Below the pieces are notes generated by a model. It saw nothing but the letters and a program-made list of their open reading frames with translations, was not told the origin of the DNA and did not search any database. The position numbers and the translations under genes were made by a program. A stretch of 64,000 nucleotides of DNA from Bradyrhizobium sp. CB1650 (lineage in GTDB: Bacteria; Pseudomonadota; Alphaproteobacteria; Rhizobiales; Xanthobacteraceae): positions 3,315,501 through 3,379,500 of the forward strand of contig NZ_CP121695.1 in NCBI RefSeq assembly GCF_029761915.1, in the 5' to 3' direction. Positions within the stretch are counted from its first letter, which is position 1. Every line of letters starts with the position of its first letter. Positions 7,753 through 47,470 of this stretch are shown here, one piece after another.

Positions 7753-8166
7753 ATGACCGCGAACAGTCGTATGGCGAGCGCCATCCACATCATGAGTTTC
7801 GTCGCTTACGCTGGCGACGAGGGGACGACTTCGGAGGCAATCGCGAAAAGCCTCCAGACCAACCCGGTCGTGGTGCGGAAGATCCTCAAGCTCCTCGAGC
7901 GAGAGGGACTGGTCGCTCTTCGCCAAGGCCGCCAAGGCGGCGTCGGTCTCCGGCACCCGGCATCTCGCATTACACTCGGTCAGATCTACAAGGCGGTTGA
8001 AAGCGAGAACGGAGTTTTTGCGATGCGCGGCCAGGTGCATGAGGGATGCGTGGTGGCCTGCGCGATGAAACGAAGGCTTGGCCCAATCTTCGACGCTGCG
8101 AACGACGCCGTTGAGCAGGCTCTCAGCAAAACGAGTCTGGCGGAGCTGGTACGCGGCGTCCGCTAA
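7753..8166 (+). CDS. Rrf2-family transcriptional regulator
   Basis: A 137-aa winged-helix protein. The N-terminus (NSRMASAIHIM, then TSEAIAKSLQTNPVVVRKIL) is the Rrf2 DNA-binding domain, and LRQGRQGGVGL is the wing. Only two cysteines follow (GCVVAC), fewer than the three that bind Fe-S in IscR or NsrR, so it resembles the YwnA-like redox or electrophile-sensing branch. The third of three tandem ATGs is chosen from family alignment and the promoter position. It lies 55 bases before an SDR gene and upstream of an MFS pump, likely targets. Confidence 0.85.
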   Translation: MTANSRMASAIHIMSFVAYAGDEGTTSEAIAKSLQTNPVVVRKILKLLEREGLVALRQGRQGGVGLRHPASRITLGQIYKAVESENGVFAMRGQVHEGCVVACAMKRRLGPIFDAANDAVEQALSKTSLAELVRGVR

Positions 8167-8221
8167 ATTTGCCCGAAACTGTAACCGACACGGACATGAT
8201 TAATCTCGAGGAGTGACAACG

Positions 8222-8983
8222 ATGGGTAGGCTAGCGGACAAGAATATCCTTATCACCGGCGGCAACAGCGGGATCGGGCTGGCCGCAGCGCAGGAATTCG
8301 ACCGAGAGGGCGCGCGCGTCGCCATCTGCGGCTTGAATGAGGGGTCGCTGCAGGCAGCCAAGGAGACGCTTGGAGCCGGAAGTCTCGCCGTTCGCGCGGA
8401 CGTCAGCAAACTCACCGACCTCGACAAGCTGTTCGCCACGATCAAGCGGGAGTTCGGGTACCTGGACGGCGTCTTCGTCAATGCAGGTTACAGCGAGTTC
8501 CTGTTGTTCGAAGAGGTGACAGAGCAAAGCTTCGACAAGGTGATAGGCTCCAATTTCAAAGGGGCTTACTTCACAATTCAAAAGGCCTTGCCACTGCTCA
8601 GGCGAAGTTCGTCTGTCATCATCAATGCGTCCGTTGGCGCGCGCAAGGGGTGGCCGACAACCTCGACCGTCTCGACCTGCAAGGCCGCGGTCGTCCATCT
8701 CGCCCGAATCCTCAGCGCCGAACTCGTGGACCGCGGGATTCGCGTGAATACCCTAAGCCCGGGCCCGACGGACACGGCAATGTTCGCTCGCTTCGCAGGC
8801 GAAGAGCAGGGCGAGGCGGTTAAGGACATCCTCCGAATCAACAATCCAAGCAAGCGGATAGCCGATCCGTTGGAAATCGCGAAGCTGGCGGTTTACCTCG
8901 CGTCGGACGATTCCGCGTACGTCGTCGGAGCAGACTTCCTGATCGACGGCGGGGTCACGGCCATTTCGGGCGTGGGCGCCTGA
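8222..8983 (+). CDS. SDR-family protein lacking the catalytic tyrosine
   Basis: A 253-aa Rossmann-fold protein. Residues 12-19 are the dinucleotide motif TGGNSGIG, VNAG follows at about 87, the structural Asn is N111, the catalytic Ser is S137 and the Lys is K154. The expected catalytic Tyr at position 150 is Val (STVSTCK in place of xxYxxxK). The codon is GTC, two changes from a Tyr codon. Classical dehydrogenase activity is therefore doubtful unless another residue substitutes. The C-terminal part (NTLSPGPTDT, SAYVVGADFLIDGG) is normal. GAGGAG eight bases before ATG 8222 sets the start over GTG 8213. It is probably co-regulated with the preceding Rrf2 gene. Confidence 0.9.
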   Translation: MGRLADKNILITGGNSGIGLAAAQEFDREGARVAICGLNEGSLQAAKETLGAGSLAVRADVSKLTDLDKLFATIKREFGYLDGVFVNAGYSEFLLFEEVTEQSFDKVIGSNFKGAYFTIQKALPLLRRSSSVIINASVGARKGWPTTSTVSTCKAAVVHLARILSAELVDRGIRVNTLSPGPTDTAMFARFAGEEQGEAVKDILRINNPSKRIADPLEIAKLAVYLASDDSAYVVGADFLIDGGVTAISGVGA

Positions 8984-35709: not shown

Positions 35710-36464
35710 TCAGCTTGTGGCCGATTCCGTTGAAAAAAACCCGCAGTAATTGATTGTAATGCCGCGTGCACCGCCTTTTGCCGGATCTATGCGGGCCTCG
35801 GGGTGGGCCATCGGGATCAGCTTGGCCATCTTCCGAAGGTTCTGGGCGATGGCTGCGAGGATGAACTCGTCACGCGCGCCGTTTGGGCCTCGTAGACGTA
35901 GACGGTCGAGCTTGAGAATGCGCTTGAGATGCGCAAATAGCATCTCGATCGTTTTGCGAAGCCGCCGCGATATCCGGCCTTCCCAAGATCGCGCGATCTC
36001 GCGTGCCATGTCACGAGCGCCTTAATAGATCGATCGCGGCACGTATCGAGCGGGCTCCTTTGGACAGCACCGCTGCTTTAGACGGCAAGCTTGGCAATCA
36101 TACTTGCTCGCCCGGTAGCGTAGTGTCCCACCATCGATCAATGAGCCGGTCGTCGTCAGCAACTTGCCGCCGGGGCAGACGTAAACATCACTGGCATGGT
36201 CGTAGGTGAAGTCATCGCGTGAGAAGGTACCATCCTGGCGGCCTGACCTGTCGAACACTGTCACATGCGGCTCGATGCCATGCTCATAGACCGGCCAGCC
36301 GAGCATCTCAGCCGAGCCGTAAGCGCTGTCGCCCATGAGCCTGGCCGGATAGATGTCGAAGCGCTCCATCGAACGTTCGATCATGCGTTTGGCGGCGAGG
36401 ACCTCGGCCTGTCGGATCGCCGTGGTTGCTTCAACATCAACGATGATCGCGTTCTCGACGTAGA
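35710..36464 (-). pseudogene. IS1182-family transposase C-terminal half, nonsense mutation
   Basis: The frame reads NAIIVDVEATTAIRQAEVLA, DSAYGSAEMLGWPVYEHGIE and RYVPRSIY, then a TAA at 36022-36024 where the family has a Glu codon. It continues in the same frame GARDMAREIARSWEGRISRR and LFAHLKRILKLDRLRLRG. The first half is missing: homology stops near 36464, exactly where repeat copy A begins. The element is dead. Confidence 0.85.
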
Positions 36465-36540
36465 TAAGGTTTCATACGAAACGGAGTCAGTTCGTCGACC
36501 GATAAGGAAAACCAACAAAGCTTATCAGTCAGACGAACGC
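36461..36540 (+). repeat. Compound repeat, copy A
   Basis: Copy A of a roughly 77-bp unit found four times between 36.4 and 46.2 kb. Layout of the unit: GACTGATAAG, about 25 bases containing CGGAATCAG, then ACTGATAAG, 12-14 bases, and the inverted CTTATCAGTC. In copy A the first element is worn (AGATAAGG), the second is CCGATAAGG at 36499 and the third CTTATCAGTC at 36521. It abuts the IS1182 remnant. Confidence 0.8.
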
Positions 36541-36633
36541 TTAATAGTGTGCTGAACGAGGCGACCGGTCGCCGGGCTGGGGCGCCTTAGCCGTTGCAGT
36601 GCGCGAGTCGCGATTCATTTATGTCGGCGAGAT
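36541..36633 (+). repeat. Left direct repeat (primase gene fragment)
   Basis: Together with the end of copy A, positions 36501-36633 match 46119-46250 with only a few differences and one indel (133 against 132 bases). The sequence includes the codons for AVRESRFI of the primase-like gene that continues only in the right copy. The two copies flank a 9.5-kb cargo segment. Confidence 0.8.
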
Positions 36634-36804
36634 AGCGGCGCTTGCGCGCTTTGGCGGTCGAATTGCTCGCCTGCCATCGGACGACCGATCAGGCGAGCAA
36701 GCGTCCCGAGCACTTCGTCCGCGCGGAAGGAAATGACAGGAGCGCCATCGATCCGAACCTCAGCTTCCCCCTTCCCCATGAGTCGAAGCAAATCCTAAAC
36801 GTCA

Positions 36805-36824
36805 ATTGTGATAGATGTCACATA
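36805..36824. promoter_or_regulatory. Consensus CRP-type binding site
   Basis: ATTGTGATAGATGTCACATA contains TGTGA, six bases, TCACA, an exact match to the cAMP receptor protein consensus. It lies about 250 bases before the cytochrome-like gene that is cotranscribed with an adenylate cyclase gene. Binding by a CRP-family protein is inferred from the sequence alone. Confidence 0.6.
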
Positions 36825-37074
36825 TCTTACCGTAATCCCATGCTACGCTTCGCGAGCAGGGGCGCGGTATTTGTTTCTGAATGTGTCTCCCGTCAAGGTC
36901 AGTTTCGGCAAAGTTTCAAAATTTCTGCAAATTGCAAAGTTCTGCAAATTCAATTGGGGACCTCTGCCAGCGCGCTTGCGCAAACGGAATCTCCGGGTCA
37001 CATTGATAGCCGGAATCCGTGTCCTGCAGGCATGCGCACTTGAGCAGCAGTCCTACCGGCACGAAGGGGGGCAC

Positions 37075-38682
37075 ATGCCGCGATCTAGATCCCGGTCGAG
37101 CTGGGCGGTCGTCGCCACAGCCGCCACGACGCTGACGCTGAGACTTGCACTGGTACCTGCGCTCCTGCCCGCGATGGCAGTTGCGGCGGACACGCCCGAT
37201 CCGTTCGCCTCCAATTTCGGCGTCTACCCGCCGGCGGACTCCAATCCGCCGCCGTTCGAGGGGCCCTACAAATTCCGCAAGCTGAGCCACGACTATCCCG
37301 CGCAGCCGCCAGAGCGGTCGTGGCGCGACGTCAAGCCGAAGGGCCGCATCACCGTTGCCAACGCCGCCGACTACATGGCGCGGCTGAAGGAATATGTCGC
37401 GCCGTCGCTGCGCAAGATGATCGAGGCGCCCGCGCAATGGGACCCGGCGTCGAGCGGCTGGTACGACATGCCCTGGATGGGGCCGGCGGATGCGCCCGGA
37501 GACTACGACAGCGGACGCGATCCGATCCTTGGTGCATTCACCGGGCAGATCATCGTCGCCGCAAGCGAGACCAACAGCGGGCTCAAGAGCGACACCGAAA
37601 ACCACACCATCGTCTATTACGACCGCATGGCGGCGACGATGCTGGACAAGATCTGGAAGGACGTGCGCAGCCCCGATACTGCCGCCGCGAGCTTTCCCGA
37701 GGGCGGGCTCGTGGTGAAGGCCGGCGGGGTAGCGGCGACGCCGGACGACTGGCCGGTGGTCGATGGCGCCGCGATGTGGCGCGTGTATAGGCCGCCGCTC
37801 AAGGAGATCATCGACCATCGCCTGCACGGCTCGAAGGCGCCCTACACGCTGCAAGTGACGGACCTGCGCGTGATGCAGTTCGACATCATCGTCAAGGACA
37901 CCGACGCGGCGCCGGAGACGGGCTGGGTGTTTACGACCTTCGTCTATGACAAGGATGCACCCAAGGGCACAGGCGCCTGGGACCAGCTCGTGCCGCTCGG
38001 CGCCACTTGGGGCAACGATCCACAATTTGATCTTTATCCGGAAGGTCATCCGCCCGGCACGGCGCTGACGCAGTTCTGGCACAATCCGAAGGCGCCTGCC
38101 TACACCAACGCCACCCTCGGATGGGGCGGCCGCATGTCGGGGCCGATCGACATCGCCCAGCGCCACGGCGTGATCCTGGTGCAGGGTGTGCAGCGCGGGC
38201 AGCTCAAGACCGACGCCGATTGCGACTCGCCGAACGTCAAGCATACCGATGTCTCCGGTGGCTTCCATGCGTCGGCCTGCCTGAGCTGCCATGGCACCGC
38301 CCAAAGCCTGGTGCCGGCGCGGATGTATCCCTCGCCGATCATCGCGTCGCTGCCGCCGGACGGACAGCCGTTCTGCCTCTACACGCCGGGCGGCCTGGAA
38401 TGGGCCCAGTGGTATCAGAACCGCCCGGGCGACCAGCCGCAGAACCCGTTGCCCGCGCTGCTGTTGCCGGCGGCCGTAACCACCGCGAGCATGGCGGCGC
38501 TGCCGTTCGTGCGCCTCGCGCCCAATCCCGCGACGCCGGTCGATCCGCAGGCGATCCAGCTCACCCTCACGCAGCCGGTGCGCGGGCTCGACTATGATAT
38601 GCTCTTGATGTTCGCCATCGGCAACGCGCAGACGGCCAGCCAGGGCTTCACCCTGCTGCCGAAGCGGACACCGGTCCATTGA
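37075..38682 (+). CDS. Exported c-type cytochrome-like protein (535 aa)
   Basis: A strong AAGGGGGG lies three bases before ATG 37075; upstream in-frame codons are not protein-like. A long signal peptide (to about residue 38, ending AVAA) leads to a periplasmic protein. A single haem c motif, ASACLSCHG, lies near residue 405, with a nearby Met (ARMYPSP) as possible sixth ligand. The rest is rich in Trp, Tyr and Pro and matches no domain I can name; it may be an enzyme that uses haem c as electron carrier. Its stop overlaps the TTG start of the cyclase gene, so the two are coupled. Confidence 0.8.
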   Translation: MPRSRSRSSWAVVATAATTLTLRLALVPALLPAMAVAADTPDPFASNFGVYPPADSNPPPFEGPYKFRKLSHDYPAQPPERSWRDVKPKGRITVANAADYMARLKEYVAPSLRKMIEAPAQWDPASSGWYDMPWMGPADAPGDYDSGRDPILGAFTGQIIVAASETNSGLKSDTENHTIVYYDRMAATMLDKIWKDVRSPDTAAASFPEGGLVVKAGGVAATPDDWPVVDGAAMWRVYRPPLKEIIDHRLHGSKAPYTLQVTDLRVMQFDIIVKDTDAAPETGWVFTTFVYDKDAPKGTGAWDQLVPLGATWGNDPQFDLYPEGHPPGTALTQFWHNPKAPAYTNATLGWGGRMSGPIDIAQRHGVILVQGVQRGQLKTDADCDSPNVKHTDVSGGFHASACLSCHGTAQSLVPARMYPSPIIASLPPDGQPFCLYTPGGLEWAQWYQNRPGDQPQNPLPALLLPAAVTTASMAALPFVRLAPNPATPVDPQAIQLTLTQPVRGLDYDMLLMFAIGNAQTASQGFTLLPKRTPVH

Positions 38683-41618
38683 GCGCCTTCTGCACCCAGT
38701 GCGGCACGCAGCTTGGCGAGGGCATCAAGTTCTGCGGCGCCTGCGGCGCGCGGATTCCGGAGGCGAAGCCAGTGACGGTTCGGCTTGCGCTCGGCGAGCG
38801 CCGCAACATGACCGTTCTGTTCGCCGATCTGGTCGGTTCTACCCAGATGATCGACGGACGCGACCCCGAAGAGCTACTCGACGGCCTCGCCGCCTATCGC
38901 ATCGCCATCCGCGAGACCGTCGACGGCTTCGGCGGTTTCATCCTGCATCATCTCGGCGACGGCGTGGTGGTCTGCTTCGGCTACCCGATCGCTAATGAGG
39001 ACGCAGCCGAGCGCGCGGTCCGCGCCGGTCTCGCCATCGTCGACAAGGTCGCGCGGCTTGCGCCTGCGGTCGCCGGCACGCCGCTTGAGGTCCGTGTCGG
39101 CATCGCTACCGGCGTGATCGTTGCGCAGGGCAATGCGGCCACCGCGCGCATCGAGGATAATTTCACCGGCGCTGCGCTCAACATTGCCGCACGGTTGCAG
39201 TCACTGGCCGCGCCGGGCGAGGTCATCATGGCGCAGTCGACCGCGCGCCTGGTCGAGGGGGTGTTCGAGGCGCGCGCGCTCGGGCCGCAGACCCTGAAAG
39301 GTTTCGCCGAGCCGATCGCGGCGTTCGTGCCCACCGGCATCCGCGCCGGCCGCAGCCGTTTCGAGCGGCGGCTCGAGATCGCCCGCGCTCCGCTCATCAA
39401 TCGCCATGTGGAGCGCGATGCGCTCAGGCGCCTGTTCGACAAGGCGTGCGGGGGAGCGGCGCAATTCATCAATCTCGTCGGCGAAGCTGGCATCGGCAAG
39501 TCGCGCCTTGCGCACGTGCTGAACGAAACCGCGCCGGATGCCGGGTTCCAGACCGTCAATCTGCAATGCAACGCGGCGCTCGCCAACACCGTGCTGCATC
39601 CCCATATCGATCTGCTGCAGCGGCAGTGTGGCATCGTAGCCCATGACGAAGACGGCGTGCGAATGCAAAAGTTGCGCGCCTTTCTCGATGGCCGGCCGGC
39701 GACCGATCCCGATGCGCCAGCGCTGCTCGCAAGCCTGCTCGGCATCGCCGGCGAGGATGTGCCGCCTGTCCGTATGAGCCCGCCCGAGCAGCGCGCGCGC
39801 ACGCTCGCGATCCTCCAGGAGCTCATAGTTGCGCAGGCGCGGGAAAAGCCACTGGTCGTCGTCTATGAGGATCTGCATTGGGCCGATCCCACGTCGCTCG
39901 ATTTCCTCTCCGGCTTCGTCGAGGCAAACCCCGCGGCGCCCTTGATGATGATTGCGACCACGCGGCCCGGATCGCGGCTCGAATGGACTGAGCGTGAGAC
40001 GGTCACCACACTCGCGGTCGATCGGTTGACGGCAGACGATTCCTCCCGCTTTGCCGAGGCGATCGGGCACGATCTCGGGCTGTCGCCAACCGATGTGTCG
40101 CGCATCGTCGCGAAGACCGACGGCGTGCCGCTGTTCGTCGAAGAGATGACGCGCATGATGCTGGAGTCGCCGGAACGCATCCGCCGCGGCGACCTGCCTG
40201 AAACCCTCTCGGATCTCTTGACCGAGCGGCTCGACAGGCTCGGGCCGGCCCGACGCGTGATCCAGGTCTGCGCCGTGATCGGCCGCGAGTTCGCGCCCGC
40301 GCTGCTCGCCGCGGTGATGGAGCAGCCCCTTGACGAGCTCGGCGAGCCCCTGCAGGCGATCCTCGCCTCCGGCCTGGTCGGTCAGGGGCCGGGCGAGAAC
40401 CTCAGCTTCAAGCACGCGCTGATTCAGGATGCCGCCTATGCCTCGCTACTGGCGCGGCCGCGGCGCGAGCTGCACGAGCGCGTCGCGCAGCGGCTGATCT
40501 CGGACTTCGCCGAAATCGCCGAGCGCGAGCCGGAGCTCGTCGCCCGCCATCTCACCCTCGGCGGCAAGCCGCATGCGGCGGCGGGATGGTGGCTGCGTGC
40601 GGGCGGCGCCGCGATAGGCCGGGGCAGCGCGCAGGAGGCAGCGGCGCTGTTGCAAGCGGGGCTCGATGCACTCGCCGACCAGCCCGACGACGAGGCGCGC
40701 CGGCGCGAGGAACTCGGCCTCCTCGCCGTGCTCGGCCCTGCTCAGATGGTGATGAAGGGCCCCGGCAGTCCCGACTTCGGTGCCGTGCAGCGGCGCGCCT
40801 ACGACACCTGCCGCGCACTGCCCGATACGCCGTCGTTGTTCCGCATCACCTATGGTCTTGCGCTGTATCATTGGGGGAAGGCGGAATTTGCAACCGCGCT
40901 GCCGCTCGCGGCAGCGCTCGACGCGATGAAGGCCGACGACCCCAGCGAAGAGCACGTGCTCGCTGCCGGCAACATGAACGGCATGATCCGCCTGCATCTC
41001 GGCGACGCGACGGAGGCGCGCACCCGCCTGAGCGAGACCGTCGGGCTTTACCGGCCGGAGCGTCACGCGCCGCTCTATCCGCACTACATGATGGATTTCG
41101 GCGTGTTCGGCCGCTTCTATCTCGGCATCGCCTGTGCGATGACGGGCGCGGGCGATGTCGGCGCGGCCCATGCGCGGGATGCGGTGCAGCTTGCGGAGGC
41201 ACTCGGCCAACCGCATTCACGCGGCTTTTCCATGCTCGCCAATTTCATCGTCGCGATGCTGCGCGACGACGTGGAGGCCGCCCGAGACTGGGCGACGCGC
41301 TGCCGCCCGTTTTGCGTTGAGATGGGCTTCCCGGAATTCGTCGCCTTCGCCGACGTCGCGCTCGGCTGGGCCGACATCCAGGACGGCGCGGTGGAGAGTG
41401 GCCTTGCGCGCCTCGACGAGGGCATCGTCGCCTGGAAGGCCACGGGTTTCGAGACCTGGCAGACCTGGTTCGGGGCGCTCCGCGCGCAGGCATTGGTCAA
41501 ACTCGGCCGCCACGACGAGGCCCGCGCCGAAGTCGCCGACCAGGAGCGCCGCGCGGCGCAGAACGGCGAGCGCCTGTTTGCGCAGTATTTGGCGGACGCT
41601 GTGCCGTCGGCGCCGTGA
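38679..41618 (+). CDS. Zinc-ribbon / class III cyclase / AAA ATPase / TPR protein
   Basis: A 979-aa signalling protein starting at TTG 38679 (TTGA overlap). Residues 5-22 form a zinc ribbon (Cys 5, 8, 19, 22). The cyclase domain (40-215) keeps metal ligands D50 and D94 and N168/R172. A large STAND-type ATPase follows with Walker A GEAGIGKS at 268-275 and VVYEDLHWADP as Walker B. The last 350 residues are helical TPR-like repeats. It probably makes cAMP under control of nucleotide binding and a protein ligand. Coupling to a periplasmic haem protein and an upstream CRP site suggest a redox-linked cAMP circuit (inference). Confidence 0.94.
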   Translation: MSAFCTQCGTQLGEGIKFCGACGARIPEAKPVTVRLALGERRNMTVLFADLVGSTQMIDGRDPEELLDGLAAYRIAIRETVDGFGGFILHHLGDGVVVCFGYPIANEDAAERAVRAGLAIVDKVARLAPAVAGTPLEVRVGIATGVIVAQGNAATARIEDNFTGAALNIAARLQSLAAPGEVIMAQSTARLVEGVFEARALGPQTLKGFAEPIAAFVPTGIRAGRSRFERRLEIARAPLINRHVERDALRRLFDKACGGAAQFINLVGEAGIGKSRLAHVLNETAPDAGFQTVNLQCNAALANTVLHPHIDLLQRQCGIVAHDEDGVRMQKLRAFLDGRPATDPDAPALLASLLGIAGEDVPPVRMSPPEQRARTLAILQELIVAQAREKPLVVVYEDLHWADPTSLDFLSGFVEANPAAPLMMIATTRPGSRLEWTERETVTTLAVDRLTADDSSRFAEAIGHDLGLSPTDVSRIVAKTDGVPLFVEEMTRMMLESPERIRRGDLPETLSDLLTERLDRLGPARRVIQVCAVIGREFAPALLAAVMEQPLDELGEPLQAILASGLVGQGPGENLSFKHALIQDAAYASLLARPRRELHERVAQRLISDFAEIAEREPELVARHLTLGGKPHAAAGWWLRAGGAAIGRGSAQEAAALLQAGLDALADQPDDEARRREELGLLAVLGPAQMVMKGPGSPDFGAVQRRAYDTCRALPDTPSLFRITYGLALYHWGKAEFATALPLAAALDAMKADDPSEEHVLAAGNMNGMIRLHLGDATEARTRLSETVGLYRPERHAPLYPHYMMDFGVFGRFYLGIACAMTGAGDVGAAHARDAVQLAEALGQPHSRGFSMLANFIVAMLRDDVEAARDWATRCRPFCVEMGFPEFVAFADVALGWADIQDGAVESGLARLDEGIVAWKATGFETWQTWFGALRAQALVKLGRHDEARAEVADQERRAAQNGERLFAQYLADAVPSAP

Positions 41619-41664
41619 ATGGCGGAGGCCGCGCATCACCACTCTCTGCCGGTCGACTTGTCGA

Positions 41665-41736
41665 CTGACAAACCTTCAGACGAAACGGAATCAGTTCGCG
41701 AACTGATAAGCAAATTGCCAAAAGCTTATCAGCCAG
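41665..41736 (+). repeat. Compound repeat, copy B
   Basis: The first element is GACTGACAAAC (worn), followed by CGGAATCAGTTCGCG, ACTGATAAGC at 41702, 12 bases, and GCTTATCAG at 41724. The inner pair forms 9-10-base arms. It begins 46 bases after the cyclase stop and separates that operon from the AraC/NYN cargo. Confidence 0.8.
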
Positions 41737-42029
41737 CCTCGGCTCTTCCTTGGGAACGGGTTAGCTGCGAATATCATTCGGACCGAGCTGGCTGTTTGGA
41801 ACGGCTTCGACTTCGGACCACGCATTGGGCCAAGGCAGAAAAACGCCGTCGTCACCCAGTGCGGAGTCAAAACAATATCGCTCAATGTTTCAGAGGAGCT
41901 AATGATCTCCTGCCTACTGAGCTGGCAGGGCATGGGCGGTGGCACGGGGTAGCGCAAGAGTATCATTCCGGTGCAACGGAAGCCTGGGTCCATTCAACAC
42001 GGAATCCGCGGCCGAGAACGCTGGTAGCT
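41737..42029. other. Intergenic, no supported gene
   Basis: Downstream of copy B and upstream of the AraC gene's stop I see no frame with a ribosome binding site or recognisable product. Confidence 0.55.
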
Positions 42030-42959
42030 TTAGCATAAGCCACTCTCGCGTCGAAAAACCGTTGGCGTGATTCCCGTCAACTTTAGAAACGCGCGGTTCA
42101 GTTGGGCGGCGTCGCTAAATCCTACCATGAGCGCCACGGCGGCAATCGATAGATCGCGTTTCAGCAGAAGCTCCTTCGCAACACTGATCCGCTCGGATAG
42201 GACGTACTGATAGGGCGAAAGCCCGACGGATTGTTTAAACGCCCGAATAAAGTAGAACTGGCTCAATCCCACCAAGTTCGCCAATTCAGAAATCCCGATT
42301 TGTTTCGAAATGTGAGCTTCAATAAACTCTTTGACGCGTCTTAATTGAAGTGCAGTTAAACCTCCGCGAACCGGATTCAGTTGTGAGTGCCGCGGATCAG
42401 CGACGTGCTCGAGTTCCCACAAAAGCAACAGTCCGAGCGTTTCCGCATAAGCGTGGTCGTTTATACTCGAGCCATCTAAGACCCTTTGGAGTTTTAGGAG
42501 CGTGACTTTAAGATTGTCGTTTTCAAAATACAAAGACGGAGGAATTTTTGAGATATCGTTTGCGTCGCGATCTGCTGCGGGAGGCGAAAGATGGACTGCA
42601 AAGACCGACGACATGCGGCTCTTGAAACGAGCCCAGCCTTCCGTAGAACACCCGATCGGCGCGAACGTTAGTTTACCTCGGACATCAGCAAGCGTCGAAC
42701 GGTTCGCGCCATTTATAGTAGTCTCGCCATCAGAGCGGACAAAGTCATGCAGCGCTACATAAGCTGCATCTCCTCTTACTCGATATTCCACTTCCACTGA
42801 TGGAGTACGAACAAGCTCCGCAGAGAACCACGACCAGGACATCCGCCTAACTAAAGATGGATCCTGGGCATCAGCGTGTCGCTTATTACACTCGATTTTA
42901 GCGTCCGGCCCCAAACCCATTTCCCCTCGAAGAAGTCGATTTTTGGACTTAGTGTACAT
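42030..42959 (-). CDS. AraC-family transcriptional regulator
   Basis: A 309-aa regulator (ATG 42959 after TAGGA; a start at 43034 would add 25 residues). The C-terminal 100 residues carry both helix-turn-helix motifs (ISELANLVGLSQFYFIRAFK; AAVALMVGFSDAAQLNRAFL) and the PYQYVLSERI linker. The N-terminal part (YRVRGDAAYVALHDFVRSDG) is a cupin-like sensor of unknown ligand. Base composition is lower in GC than its neighbours, suggesting separate acquisition. It is alone between repeat copies B and C apart from the NYN gene. Confidence 0.86.
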   Translation of the reverse strand: MYTKSKNRLLRGEMGLGPDAKIECNKRHADAQDPSLVRRMSWSWFSAELVRTPSVEVEYRVRGDAAYVALHDFVRSDGETTINGANRSTLADVRGKLTFAPIGCSTEGWARFKSRMSSVFAVHLSPPAADRDANDISKIPPSLYFENDNLKVTLLKLQRVLDGSSINDHAYAETLGLLLLWELEHVADPRHSQLNPVRGGLTALQLRRVKEFIEAHISKQIGISELANLVGLSQFYFIRAFKQSVGLSPYQYVLSERISVAKELLLKRDLSIAAVALMVGFSDAAQLNRAFLKLTGITPTVFRRESGLC

Positions 42960-43307
42960 ACCAATAAGTCCTACTAAATAGCAATAATTGCTCGAACTAT
43001 CGAAAATTGCTTGGCGAACAGGTTTAAAAAACAACCTCAGGGTCTTACAACTTGCGCCAAATAGCTTTTCTTGCGCTGAAATAGTTTCAAAGAGCAGTGC
43101 TCCTATTGCTGATCATAGTTCTTCATGGTGTCGTTCCGGTTCGCTGGACAAGCTCGGGTACTGTTACGTAGTGGGGCTTAGCTTGGTCAGTTCGACAGCG
43201 CATTTGGAGGATCATGAAGAAGCCGGTTCTTGCACTTGCAGCATCTGTTCTCGGAACCGTTGTCGCGAAGGCCGACTGTGCGCCTCGAACAGTTTACAAC
43301 TGCACAC
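42960..43307. other. Divergent intergenic region
   Basis: This low-GC stretch separates the AraC and NYN genes, which point away from each other, so it must hold both promoters. No clear operator was identified. Confidence 0.5.
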
Positions 43308-43895
43308 ATGTCGTATGAAAACGCCAACAGGGTTGCGCTCTTTATCGACGGCGCTAACCTCCATGCGACGGCCAGGACACTCGGTTTCGACATCGATTAC
43401 AAGCGCCTGCTGAAGGAATTTCAGAGCCGCGGGACGCTGCTGCGCGCGTTCTATTACACCACGATCATTGACGATCAGGAATACTCGTCGATCATTCCCC
43501 TAATCGATTGGCTCGATTACAACGGCTACACGGTCGTCACTAAGGCGACCAAGGAATTCATCGATGCCAGCGGCCGCCGTAAGATCAAGGGTAACATGGA
43601 TATCGAGCTTGCGGTCAATGCCATGGAGCTTGCCGAGCATATCGGCCAGATGGTGCTATTCTCGGGCGACGGCGATTTCCGGTCTCTGGTCGAGGCGGTG
43701 CAGCGGCGGGGCGTGAGGGTGACCGTCATTTCAACGATCGCCAGCCAGCCTCCGATGATCGCCGACGAATTGCGCCGCCAGGCCGACGTCTTCACCGACC
43801 TCGTCGAGCTGCAATCCAAGCTTGGCCGCGATCCGTCCGAACGCCCGACCCCGCGCGAGCCCGCACGCATGCCTCATGTCGCGCAAAACAAGTAA
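43308..43895 (+). CDS. NYN-domain (LabA/DUF88) protein, PIN-like nuclease fold
   Basis: A 195-aa protein with the NYN domain. Acidic residues of the metal site are present: D14 in LFIDGANL, D98 in GNMDIELAV, and D121/D123 in LFSGDGDFRSL. The C-terminus ends in a Pro-rich tail (PSERPTPREP). Such proteins are predicted RNases. The ATG at 43308 gives the family N-terminus. The family is normally a single conserved chromosomal gene in Bradyrhizobium, so this may be an extra copy carried as cargo. It lies 110 bases before repeat copy C. Confidence 0.9.
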   Translation: MSYENANRVALFIDGANLHATARTLGFDIDYKRLLKEFQSRGTLLRAFYYTTIIDDQEYSSIIPLIDWLDYNGYTVVTKATKEFIDASGRRKIKGNMDIELAVNAMELAEHIGQMVLFSGDGDFRSLVEAVQRRGVRVTVISTIASQPPMIADELRRQADVFTDLVELQSKLGRDPSERPTPREPARMPHVAQNK

Positions 43896-44005
43896 GCGTA
43901 TGGCAGCGTCGCGTCCTGCCCGGCACCCCCCGATGGGCTCCGATCGAAGCTGAGGCAAAAGTCGATCTGCTGGCCGAATTTGACCGCAAATGAAGCCACT
44001 CTGCT

Positions 44006-44086
44006 GACTGATAAGAAAATCCTACCGACGGAATCAGCGCGCGGACTGATAAGGTTTCGAGCATTTGCTTATCAGTCCGATCGGCC
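44006..44086 (+). repeat. Compound repeat, copy C
   Basis: The best-preserved copy: GACTGATAAG, 20 bases, CGGAATCAGCGCGCG, GACTGATAAGG near 44044, 12-13 bases, and GCTTATCAGTCC near 44067. It separates the NYN gene from the PepSY/RND remnants. Confidence 0.82.
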
Positions 44087-44277
44087 ACGTAAGGGGAGAG
44101 AATCCCTCCCTGCGCTCCGAGCTAAATCAAATGTCAGTACTTGCAGCGGCTTGAGCGACGCAGACTCTCCGCCGCTGCGGTCAACGCCGCCAGTGGTACA
44201 TACGGTCTCACCGACTAGCGCTAAACCCTGACTCTCGCAAGAATGAAAGCGGACATAGGGACCGGCTCAGCCGATGC

Positions 44278-45001
44278 CTACTCATTACCCCGATCAGAAG
44301 TGGCCATTAGGTGAGGGGACGTAAAGCGGTGCAAGGTTTGCTTCGGTCGTTTAGGAGAGCGCATGCGATGAGTGGCCGACCGACTTTTGGAAGTGGCGCG
44401 TGGTGGTTCGAGGAAGACCTCCTTCACGTGGTCATCGCTTAGCACGACAACCACGAAATTGAGCTGATCGCCTTCCTTGATCAGACCTCCGCTGATGGCC
44501 TTTCCAGCTGCGGCTTTCTCAGCGATCGCGACGGCGTCAGATAGATCCTGTTTGACCACTCTCAACGCGTTGATGCCGTCCCGTTCTTCCATTTCAAGCT
44601 CGTTAAGAGTCCACGACGTCTCAGGTCCGGCTATCAGCCCCGTACGAGCATCAACGACGTTTTCCCATATCTCTTTGTCTTTGATGGTCCTCACCCGATA
44701 AGAGGGATTGTCCGAGGTATCGAAATATCGCGGCGGCTCGAGACCCCTTATGTAATCGTTCGGCAATGCCAATCGCCTGGACGAGCGAAAGCTGCGCAGC
44801 ACGGAATGCCCCAAGGAACCGCTGATCGGACTCCGTGTTCGTCTCACGATGAGCTGATGCGCTTTGGCCAGTAGAGTTCAACGATCCATCGTTGAGTTCA
44901 GCCATGGCGGCGCGAGGGACAAGTGCTAGGGACAGCAGAAGGATTCCGATGAACGCTTGCTTCTTCGGCATCACACCAATTGGACGGCTTGATAGATTCA
45001 T
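44278..45001 (-). pseudogene. Secreted PepSY-domain protein, one frameshift
   Basis: The first frame (45001 down) gives a signal peptide (KQAFIGILLLSLALVPRAAM) and LSLVQAIGIAERLHKGSRAA, the start of a PepSY domain. Near 44725 the frame must change to read FDTSDNPSYRVRTIKDKEIW and ENVVDARTGLIAGPE, then a second PepSY-like unit (LSDAVAIAEKAAAGKAISGG). One base lost or gained explains it. PepSY domains usually restrain peptidases or bind metal-linked partners in the periplasm. The tail after EPPRAT is not family-like. Confidence 0.75.
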
Positions 45002-45104
45002 GAGATGAGCGTTGGGTTTGAGTAATGGACGGAGGGGAAGTAGCTCCGCCGGGGCACTTCACATTAGTAGCGGGAACCGGCGCACGATCTTTGGGTCGCG
45101 CTGG

Positions 45105-45311
45105 TCACTTGTGCCTCAGGACGTCAGGCCACAACGCCGCAGCAACTATCAGTGATTGGCAGGCAAGCGTAGGCGGAGATTTCGTGCTGCACCGGCCGGG
45201 TTCGCCCGACCCCGAAGCCGCAGTAACGGCAGTCGGTTTGAGAGTGGTAAAGAACGCAAGGAAGAACAACGCCCCGATTCCGAACATAAAGACGCTGATA
45301 ACTTGCCTCAT
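45105..45311 (-). CDS. Small membrane or secreted protein (68 aa)
   Basis: AGGAG six bases before ATG 45311 overlaps the stop of the RND remnant, so the gene is coupled to it. The product begins MRQVISVFMFGIGALFFLAF, a membrane anchor or signal, and continues TAVTAASGSGEPG. I recognise the first half as a small protein found next to transporters in Bradyrhizobium. Role unknown. Confidence 0.65.
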   Translation of the reverse strand: MRQVISVFMFGIGALFFLAFFTTLKPTAVTAASGSGEPGRCSTKSPPTLACQSLIVAAALWPDVLRHK

Positions 45312-45319
45312 ATTGGCTC

Positions 45320-45983
45320 CTATGCATTTTCCAGTTTGCTCAGAGAGGGCGTATGCGTTGACACGGCAGCTTGCATTTCTGGGGCAAGCAGATTTTCGTG
45401 AGTGCCCTCGCTGATGGGCGCCGGCTCCTTGATCCGGAACCACGCGACATAGAGCGCCGGCAAGAACAACAGCGTCAGCACAGTGCCTACGATGATGCCG
45501 CCCATCATCGCGTAGGCCATCGGTCCCCAGAAGATCTCGCGCGCGATCGGGATCAGCGCGAGACTTGCGGCAGCCGCGGTCAGCATGATCGGCCGCATGC
45601 GGTGTTCGGTCGCTTCCATGACCGCTTCCCATGCAGGCCGTCCTTCCTTCCTCAGGTCCTCGATCTGCACAATCAGGATCACCGAGTTGCGGATCAGGAT
45701 GCCGATCAGCGCCAGCACACCGAGGATCGCAACGAAGCCGAGCGGAGCTCCGCTTGGCAGCAGGGCCATGACCACGCCGATTACGGCGAGTGGCGCAACC
45801 GCAAACACCAGGAACAGCCGGTGAAAGCTCTGCAGCTGGATCATCAGAATGGTGGCCATGATGAACAGCATCAGCGGAACGACGGCCGCGATCGGCGCCT
45901 GGCTTTTCGCGCTTTCCTCCACCGAGCCTCCGATTGCGAGCGAGTAACCGGCCGGCAATCCCCTTGCGAACTCGTCCACCTCG
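45320..45983 (-). pseudogene. RND efflux pump, C-terminal fragment
   Basis: About 220 codons of the last membrane domain of an AcrB/MdtC-type pump: LPAGYSLAIGGSVEESAKSQ, LQSFHRLFLVFAVAPLAVIG, ILIRNSVILIVQIEDLRKEG and IIVGTVLTLLFLPALYVAWF. The remaining about 800 residues are missing. The break at 45982 is where a 90-bp sequence shared with 59607-59696 begins, so rearrangement removed the 5' part. Confidence 0.9.
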
Positions 45984-46071
45984 GCCAATTTTGAGGTTCG
46001 TGATGGAATGCATCTCCTGGGCTGATCTCGACGCGGAGGAGCAATGCGCCATCGCGATATTGGGAGCTGGA
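45982..46071 (+). repeat. 90-bp exact copy of 59607-59696 (truncated small gene)
   Basis: This segment is identical to the 5' part of the small gene at 59628-59825, including its start and codons for MECISWADLDAEEQCAIAIL. It is cut at 46071, six bases before repeat copy D. Confidence 0.85.
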
Positions 46072-46073
46072 TC

Positions 46074-46155
46074 GCGGACTGATAAGCAAATCGCAGAAAT
46101 GGAGTCAGTTGCCTGACTGATAAGGAAAACCAACAAACCTTATAGTCAGACGAAC
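46074..46155 (+). repeat. Compound repeat, copy D
   Basis: GGACTGATAAGCAAATC, then TGGAGTCAGTTGCCT, GACTGATAAGG near 46115, 12 bases, and CCTTATAGTC (one base lost). Its right half plus flank (46119-46250) is the right direct repeat matching 36501-36633. Confidence 0.82.
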
Positions 46156-46250
46156 GCTTAATAGTGTGCTGAGCGAGGCGACCGGTCGCCGGGCTGGGGC
46201 GCCTTAGCCGTTGCAGTGCGCGAGTCGCGATTCATTCAGGTCGGCGAGAT
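46156..46250 (+). repeat. Right direct repeat (start of primase fragment)
   Basis: Counterpart of the left repeat ending at 36633. Here it leads without a break into the primase-like pseudogene, so this is the older arrangement and the left copy is the partial one. Confidence 0.8.
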
Positions 46251-47470
46251 CGCGTCGGCGGTCCTGCCGAAGACGCCCGCGATCTTCGGTCGCGCCTCGA
46301 AGCGCCAGAGCCATTATCTGTACAACACGTCGCTCGCATCGGCATTTGAGCGGGGTGCGGTGCCGTTCAAGGACCCTGAGAGCAAGCGTATGTTGCTGGA
46401 GCTCCGCATTGGAGGTGGCGACAAGGGCGCGCAAACCGTGTTTCCCGGTTCCGTTCACGAGAGCGGTGAGCCGATCAAGTGGGAAACAGAGGGTGAGCCA
46501 GCGCAGGTCGATCCTGATGAGTTGTTGTGTCGAGCTGGGCAGCTTGGCGCGCTTTGCCTGCTTGCACGCTACTGGCCCAGAAGCCCGAGCCGGGCGAAAG
46601 CGGCGGCCGCCACGATGCGGCTCTGACCATTGGCGGCTTTTTGGCGCGCTGCGGGTTCAAGCCAAGCGACGTCAAGCTGTGCGCCGAATGGATCACGCGT
46701 TGCGCGCAGGACGAGGAATGGCGCGACCGGATCAAGGCTGCCCACGACGCGGCGCTCGCCTATAAGAAGGGCGACAAGACCCGCGGCTATCCTAAGCTCA
46801 AGGAGACCTTCGGCGAGAAGGTTGCCTCTCAGGTTGCTGAATGGCTCCGCTATAGCGGACCGAGCGATGATGATGCACGCGCAAGCGAGCGTAAGGCGCG
46901 GCCAAGACCGACGAGGAGGCAACGCAAGGGGCATCGCTCCCCACCATTGAAGTCCGGGGCGGCGAGCTTTCCAACCTCGCGAGCCGGGGCGAAGAGATTT
47001 TGAGCGTGGCTGGCGTTCAAATCTTCCAGCGCAGTCGGCAGTTGGTTCGGCCCGTGATTGAGGAGGTTGACGCGACGCGCGGCCGGAAGACCAAAATCTG
47101 CCAACTCATTCTGGTCGTGCCGGACTACTTGCGTGATCTGCTGTGCCGTCACGCACGGTGGGAAAGTCTTGCTGGCAAGAAGTACCTGGCGATCGATCCC
47201 CCGCGCGGCATCGCCGCGACCATGCTGGCGCGCACTGCGGAATGGCAGCTGTTTTCCCCGGTTTACGGAGTGACCTCAGCGCCCACCATGCGGCCCGATG
47301 GTACGTTGGTGACGGAGCCGGGCTTCGACCAGAAAACGGGGCTGCTGCTGGTTGAACCTCCGCCGATGCCGGCGATCCCCGACGCGCCGACGAAGGATTG
47401 CCGCTCTGATCTGGTCGGCAACTGCCAAGCAAAAGCCCGTCAACGTGATCGTCACAAGCAGTGCGCCGGC
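46206..47470 (+). pseudogene. Prophage-type primase-polymerase/ATPase protein, several frameshifts
   Basis: The first frame reads AVRESRFIQVGEIASAVLPK, RMLLELRIGGGDKGAQTVFP and SVHESGEPIKW, typical of the bifunctional primase-polymerase domain of integrated elements. Near 46600 it shifts to SGGRHDAALTIGGFLARCGF and EEWRDRIKAAHDAALAYKKG. Near 46885 it shifts again to [20 protein letters not shown] and [20 protein letters not shown]. The N-terminus and the helicase core are missing. It marks an old prophage or integrative element. Confidence 0.78.

Follow-up and report, generated by a model that had tools for sequence, protein, structure and literature searches.

Short palindromic sites of Bradyrhizobium as candidate recombination sites of an integron-like cassette platform with a small tyrosine recombinase

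FimB/FimE-type invertases are tyrosine recombinases of about 200 aa that invert one fixed switch. Integrons, by the definitions given in the part of the source used here (PMC9024848), combine a tyrosine recombinase and its adjacent site with cassettes lying between sites, variation beside the recombinase and clusters that lack a recombinase; a cluster of sites lacking an integrase is termed a CALIN (PMC9024848, same part). On Acinetobacter plasmids, gene modules are bordered by pdif (pXerC/D) sites of arm-core-arm form with a 6-bp centre (PMC9947245, in the portion consulted), and simple recombinases are linked to mobile elements in the case of recombinase-in-trio (RIT) elements, Tn554-like TnpA and simple tyrosine recombinase elements (PMC8138268, likewise consulted in part). 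Here we analyze a 64,000-nt stretch of Bradyrhizobium sp. CB1650 (the window, always meaning this whole stretch), in which four repeat units lie at the borders of gene blocks, together with the like sites of related genomes and a 191-aa tyrosine recombinase associated with them. We read the units as recombination sites of an integron-like cassette platform run by this small, non-integron tyrosine recombinase, a reading to which the sequence evidence leads us to assign a probability of roughly 0.8.

The integron features listed above have counterparts here, but the recombinase lacks the N-terminal domain, the sites are short symmetric 13-6-13 palindromes, the cassettes may hold many genes and a gene for a protein of endonuclease-III-like aspect stands behind the recombinase. 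With the integron-integrase model the recombinase sequence P0003 reached 16.9 bits (E 0.003) against a cut-off of 265, and P0001, the 191-aa protein, was not listed at E ≤ 1e-2 (0.01). An attI-like element is found in function only, as the site upstream of the recombinase at some loci and as a block (Y, below) inserted beside such a site in one genome, G263. The pdif modules share the arm-core-arm layout, yet their unlike XerC and XerD arms are served by the host Xer proteins, whereas the arms here are alike, symmetric and track another, dedicated recombinase that is linked to them. Unlike RIT and Tn554-like elements, the clusters hold one 191-aa recombinase rather than a trio, and dispersed sites rather than two element ends. 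Against NCBIfam the recombinase matches DNA invertase models only weakly (E 0.003-0.007); unlike the FimB/FimE switch, the blocks here differ in content and place between genomes. On this analysis the system is one that would work like integrons and pdif modules, and by the integrase test it is not an integron.

In the proposed mechanism, the palindromic site, two 13-bp arms about a 6-bp core as in a Xer or Cre site, would be paired with a second such site by the recombinase, which would exchange strands at or near the core and presumably cut there. Gene blocks of about 0.7 to 12 kb would thus be inserted, removed and reshuffled, entering beside the recombinase's own gene and moving among sites, perhaps by way of circles; the endonuclease-III-like partner and the Q' repeats described below might take part. 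The reading draws on the form of the sites, the way they accompany the recombinase, arms that differ from one recombinase lineage to another, the ends of shared blocks and one locus found both empty and filled, all of which are features of the sequence.

Form and distribution of the sites

A preliminary description had placed units of about 77 bp at 36461, 41665, 44006 and 46074 of the window, and all four are present there. The three-part plan it gave for each is more aptly described as a tandem of two sites spaced by 38 bp: every unit consists of a degenerate 30-bp site, P-core-Q', followed by a palindromic 30-bp site, P-core-P' (Table 1). The basic site reads ACTGATAAG-S-WWW-(6 bases)-WWW-S-CTTATCAGT, that is, inverted like arms of about 13 bp (P, being ACTGATAAG-S-WWW, and P') on either side of a core of 6 variable bases, and Q' is the right arm WWWCGGAGTCAGT of arrays of 38-bp repeats. 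Among copies from other genomes many sites are solitary and others close off an array reading P-core-Q'-P-core-P', with three or four repeats at L009, L020 and L040; the window units are two-repeat arrays, all in one orientation. Shuffled sequence would be expected to contain the arm sequence ACTGATAAG 0.12 times; the window contains it 8 times, and 7 of these copies fall inside units. Rfam gave nothing above gathering threshold between 36000 and 47000 (two matches, both far below it). We also considered the units as terminators and rejected this: the same interval has 3 terminator-like sites (8.9 expected) and none lies on a unit.

The window's own genome (9.43 Mb) was searched with the spacer fixed at 14 bases and at most 2 mismatches allowed. 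Five places were returned: three are units 1 to 3, one is a further good site (C1:8305600), and the fifth, C1:937186, we take as chance because its spacer does not fit; unit 4 was missed by the fixed-spacer pattern because of one lost base. The site at C1:8305600 (L003) adjoins a gene that is DUF2130-like by eye, a domain seen twice in the tally of the clusters, and G006 and G099 have DNA homologous to this locus. Across the genus, 76 of 265 Bradyrhizobium genomes have exact sites (spacers of 12-16 bases), and a reversed-pattern control gave 0 throughout. The sites are clustered: the 10.4-Mb genome of G099 has all five of its sites inside 60 kb, and in G006 five of seven lie inside 56 kb of one contig. 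A sample of the order comprised 397 genomes, 15 of them from the own genus; the exact site is present in 5 of these 15 and in none of the remaining 382. A viral origin was considered and rejected: the exact 32-bp pattern is found on 4 IMG/VR contigs, and we take these matches as chance because their spacers are not of the S-WWW-N6-WWW-S form and the stretches examined showed no recombinase and no partner.

The 109 exact sites, related copies with differing flanks included, carry 44 distinct cores, against an expectation of about 103 (never fewer than 93 in 2000 draws). Arm variants and cores are freely combined, and 21 of 37 P-core-Q' cores recur among those of P-core-P' sites. The cores thus appear to be drawn from a small shared vocabulary.

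The recombinase, its partner gene and the variation of arms

Open frames of about 200 aa lie inside the site clusters, among the integrase-family matches listed for ten genomes. In P0001 (191 aa), residues 9-178 match Phage_integrase (PF00589) and no other Pfam family is found; the PF00589 matches have E values of 5e-17 and 2e-20. R43, K74, H137, R140, H167 and Y176 are invariant in 15 sequences, their roles being assigned by motif, and this set of R, K, H, R, H and Y residues in a catalytic domain places the protein among the tyrosine recombinases, as one with the catalytic domain only. The wider family is very large (7,997 of 8,000 scored candidates match at E ≤ 1e-10) and carries in the database only the names integrase or XerD. 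Relatives of the recombinase are listed on 145 Piscirickettsia plasmid records and 38 Caulobacter phage records.

Homologs at E ≤ 1e-20 occur in 38 of the 265 genus genomes. Of 25 genomes that encode a close homolog of full length, 20 have exact sites, as do 56 of the other 240 (Fisher p 3e-8, the genomes being split by hand and kinship ignored). A site with at most 3 mismatches stands about 100 bp (99-106) upstream of the gene at 9 of 29 recombinase loci, and a Bradyrhizobium japonicum plasmid carries a recombinase with a site about 160 bp upstream. A second subfamily has a ACTGATAAG half-site at -66/-67 (7 of the 29 loci), which could serve autoregulation, and some loci have neither. The half-site lies near a promoter-like stretch in L070, L071, L073, L075, L076, L077 and L079. 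Broken or truncated copies of the gene are seen near sites at C1:5028975-5029460 of G143 (site at 5042319) and at 8146-8232 of the G018 cluster (in L054), as if the platform decays in place.

In close relatives the recombinase is usually followed by a gene of about 340 aa (L044:9612-10649; L036:10038-11036), encoding a Cys-rich protein that matches no Pfam family and whose fold is, as modeled, likely endonuclease-III-like. We know of no endonuclease-III-like partner of a tyrosine recombinase.

Arms were compared at 80 named recombinase loci, the best 80 of 383. A 13-6-13 palindrome with ACT..AGT ends lies at most 200 bp upstream at 16 of the 80; among 1778 control stretches, 8 have one. The arms take at least six sequences: ACTGATAAG, ACTGATTAG, ACTTATTAG (Xanthobacteraceae), ACTCGCTAA, ACTCATCAT (Magnetospirillum, Paramagnetospirillum) and ACTCGACAT. 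The ACTTATTAG form has 2 copies in its own genome, one at the recombinase and the other 237 kb off, and is present in 0 of 6 other genomes; a distant Bradyrhizobium recombinase (G175) has an upstream palindrome of its own, which occurs once in that genome and in 0 of 10 others. The arms change with recombinase lineage in these patterns, and the 13-6-13 design is kept.

Block ends, an empty and a filled locus, and competing explanations

We compared all against all 28 cluster regions (1.234 Mb, 128 sites), which gave 392 matches of at least 200 bp. Of 1568 match ends, 54 lie no more than 18 bp from the centre of a site (random mean 5.6, maximum 21 in 300 placements). Ends that coincide with sites in both genomes of a pair number 23 of 784, and 300 random placements gave 0. 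When matches overlapping a recombinase gene in the first region are excluded, 14 of 602 remain, against a random mean of 0.004 and at most 2 in 1000 placements; a conserved 32-bp site can draw an alignment across itself, but only if the homology already reaches the site. The preliminary description had proposed to test whether the copies bound variable gene blocks, and these shared ends agree with that. Examples include a 12.2-kb block (89.6%, G111 and G189) with one end on a site in both genomes and the other within site arrays, a 7.0-kb block (96%, G031 and G093) and a 1.9-kb block (95%) that starts at C1:8305600 of the window's genome. A 5.1-kb block ends at P-GGTCGC-P' in G239 and at P-GGTCGC-Q'-P-CTAACA-P' in G143, one repeat more.

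Empty forms, which the preliminary description had proposed to look for, are represented by one locus. G111 and G225 read recombinase-site-X, where X spans about 770 bp and has a single clear frame. In G263 the order is recombinase-site-Y-site-X, with a Y of about 940 bp and an X 93-95% identical to that of G111 and G225. At the same position G221 carries 1.3 kb of DNA that is related to Y but longer (by eye it is DUF5131-like, DUF5131 being in the cluster tally) and then other DNA, and G143 a different gene that shares the first ~200 bp. The outer sites of this locus have the core TCAGAA in common; in the filled genomes, the sites nearer the recombinase either carry a different core or are degenerate.

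Together with the recombinases and upstream sites of relatives, the shared block ends and the empty and filled locus favor the earlier suggestion of recombination sites between cassettes, served by a tyrosine recombinase in trans. That the sites are instead operators, for a regulator or for the recombinase itself, found at block ends merely through their intergenic position, would suit the palindromes about 100 bp before the start and the half-sites of the second subfamily, both of which fit autoregulation; it does not explain why homology breaks off at sites in both genomes of a pair, why Y lies between two sites, or why the core varies within fixed arms, and we consider it improbable as a full explanation, although operator use and recombination are compatible and can both be true. 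A non-mobile repeat of the REP or RIME type, used by rearrangements as short homology, was the main alternative named earlier. Such repeats are likewise palindromic, intergenic and multi-copy, and a 32-bp repeat may align by chance at breakpoints, but this genome has about five copies in 9.43 Mb, four of them in 10 kb, the clusters lie near a recombinase with which the arms co-vary, and the 6-base core varies where the arms are constant. We disfavor this alternative, and rate it very improbable, because the copies are few, clustered and coincident with changes of gene content.

The sites could also belong to another recombinase, for example host XerC/XerD as on pdif modules, with the 191-aa protein merely adjacent. 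Their size is like that of dif-like sites (11-6-11 in Acinetobacter; PMC9947245, portion consulted), and host Xer is always present, including in genomes without the 191-aa gene. Against this, the sites are concentrated in genomes that carry the gene, they are absent from the sampled genomes of the order outside the genus, all of which are expected to have Xer, and their arms follow the lineage of the 191-aa gene, which makes a host Xer origin highly unlikely. An origin as the ends of RIT elements, a source to which the preliminary description had pointed, is scarcely credible: G012 has RIT-like trios, one of them close to a site array, but ACTGATAAG is missing from the 13 kb around each of the other four of its five copies, and the recombinase in the clusters is a single 191-aa protein.

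Several observations weigh against a cassette platform run by the 191-aa recombinase. Five of the 25 genomes with the recombinase have no exact site, and 64 of the 80 named loci lack the upstream palindrome at the threshold set. Some shared boundaries have differing cores in the two genomes, unlike a strict same-core rule; in active pXerC/D pairs of Acinetobacter the central 6 bp are identical (PMC9947245, in the portion consulted). The idea that Q' repeats are the paired ends of one insertion with matching cores failed its test and was rejected, there being 4 same-core P-core-Q'/P-core-P' pairs within clusters against 5.4 expected (1748 of 2000 permutations were as high as the observed 4). 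The cyclase block between units 1 and 2 of the window has 91-92% copies in two relatives, G111 and G054, with no sites nearby, and so does not depend on sites for its presence in a genome. No recombination, circle or junction was observed, so that the support comes from sequence only.

The window cluster, its cargo and wider meaning

The preliminary description had set the units at gene-block boundaries, and the distances of 46 bp after the cyclase stop and about 110 bp after the NYN stop are confirmed (Table 1). Homology of the cyclase block to G111 ends 18 bp before unit 2 and the opposite flank is by eye alike almost to unit 1, so both ends of this block fall at units. Beside unit 1, the ORF at 35710-36009 has a DDE_Tnp_1_6 transposase-domain match, the sole one among the ORFs tested there. 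The duplication reported at unit 4 is present: positions 36478-36640 match 46096-46257 (163 bp, 92%), which amounts to part of unit 1 and ~110 bp of the block that follows it. The same-core sites of units 1 and 4 are thereby direct repeats around 9.6 kb. The NYN gene is 86% like a second copy in the same genome (G000 C1:4372754-4373293) and has similar stretches in most Bradyrhizobium genomes; the copy in the window may therefore be a duplicate that was acquired.

Table 1. Repeat units and gene blocks of the window (positions are those of the window; P, P' and Q' as defined in the text).
Feature	Position	Strand	Description
Unit 1, first site	36461..36490	plus	Degenerate P-core-Q', core CATACG, 2 mismatches; first arm mutated
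Unit 1, second site	36499..36528	plus	P-core-P', core ACCAAC, left arm with one mismatch
Unit 2, first site	41665..41694	plus	Degenerate P-core-Q', core CAGACG
Unit 2, second site	41703..41732	plus	P-core-P', core TTGCCA, arms CTGATAAG/CTTATCAG exact
Unit 3, first site	44008..44037	plus	P-core-Q', 0 mismatches
Unit 3, second site	44046..44075	plus	P-core-P', core CGAGCA, exact over 32 bp
Unit 4, first site	46079..46108	plus	P-core-Q', core TCGCAG, 0 mismatches
Unit 4, second site	46117..46146	plus	P-core-P', core ACCAAC as in unit 1, last arm one base short
Block between units 1 and 2	36543..41646	plus	Two genes
624-aa protein	36808-38682	plus	No Pfam match
979-aa cyclase/AAA protein	38679-41618	plus	Guanylate_cyc, AAA_16 (Pfam)
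Block between units 2 and 3	41733..44007		Two genes
AraC-type regulator	42030-43034	minus	Pfam
NYN-domain protein	43230-43895	plus	Pfam; start uncertain
Block between units 3 and 4	44076..46078		Two ORFs
PepSY-domain ORF	44278-44847	minus	Pfam
C-terminal fragment of AcrB-type transporter	45320-45988	minus	Pfam
Copy of left edge of the block behind unit 1	46147..46257	plus	Part of the 163-bp match at 92%

That the window itself holds no recombinase gene is borne out by an integrase-family search of it, which gave no match. The own genome has 20 integrase-family matches, the nearest to the window at C1:3202102 and with an internal stop, and no homolog of the 191-aa recombinase was found in it at E ≤ 1e-20. 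We read the window cluster as a probably decayed, recombinase-less remnant of sites and cargo, the counterpart of a CALIN.

The cargo was surveyed in 143 ORFs of four clusters and 133 control ORFs, a simple longest-ORF caller being used for both. At E ≤ 1e-15 the counts of PADLOC families hardly differ (40 in cluster ORFs, 30 in control). The strongest cluster matches listed are PDC-S37 (E 0), LmuB (3.5e-258), PDC-S65 (1.6e-215), LmuA (4.7e-213), BovA (2.6e-202), Hhe (1.6e-198) and PDC-S14 (5.6e-115), with SduA and a SAVED-HNH effector among the weaker ones. As a descriptive comparison among the matches listed, seven named families fall below 1e-100 in the clusters and the best control match is 1.1e-72, the control families listed being mostly models matched by one UvrD-like helicase. 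The cluster cargo is mixed and also includes transport, amidase and insertion-sequence domains; some of it, judged by sequence similarity, strongly resembles anti-phage systems. Beside a site of G006, L036:12800-14800 (minus strand) encodes by eye a TIR-domain and helicase-like protein, a possible defence gene.

A full-text search of the open literature, subscription papers and preprints being outside its scope, returned among the matches listed no title or abstract start in which either the sites or the recombinase family is presented as a cassette system; given this limited scope the negative is weak evidence of novelty. We regard it as evenly balanced whether the system is a second, independently evolved integron-like platform of the Alphaproteobacteria, and perhaps beyond, with a minimal recombinase, an endonuclease-III-like partner in close relatives and cassettes that range from a single gene to 12 kb and include anti-phage systems. 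In such a platform lineage-specific arms would follow a 13-6-13 design, 6-bp cores would be shared within Bradyrhizobium and the 38-bp arrays would record past events. By what route strains exchange their chromosomal defence genes is an open question. If our reading is true, a very common family named only integrase or XerD would be a cassette-moving machine with sites readable from sequence, its endonuclease-III-like partner would raise the new question of how the reaction is resolved, and the borders of cassettes and their unknown cargo, including new defence genes, would become directly mappable.

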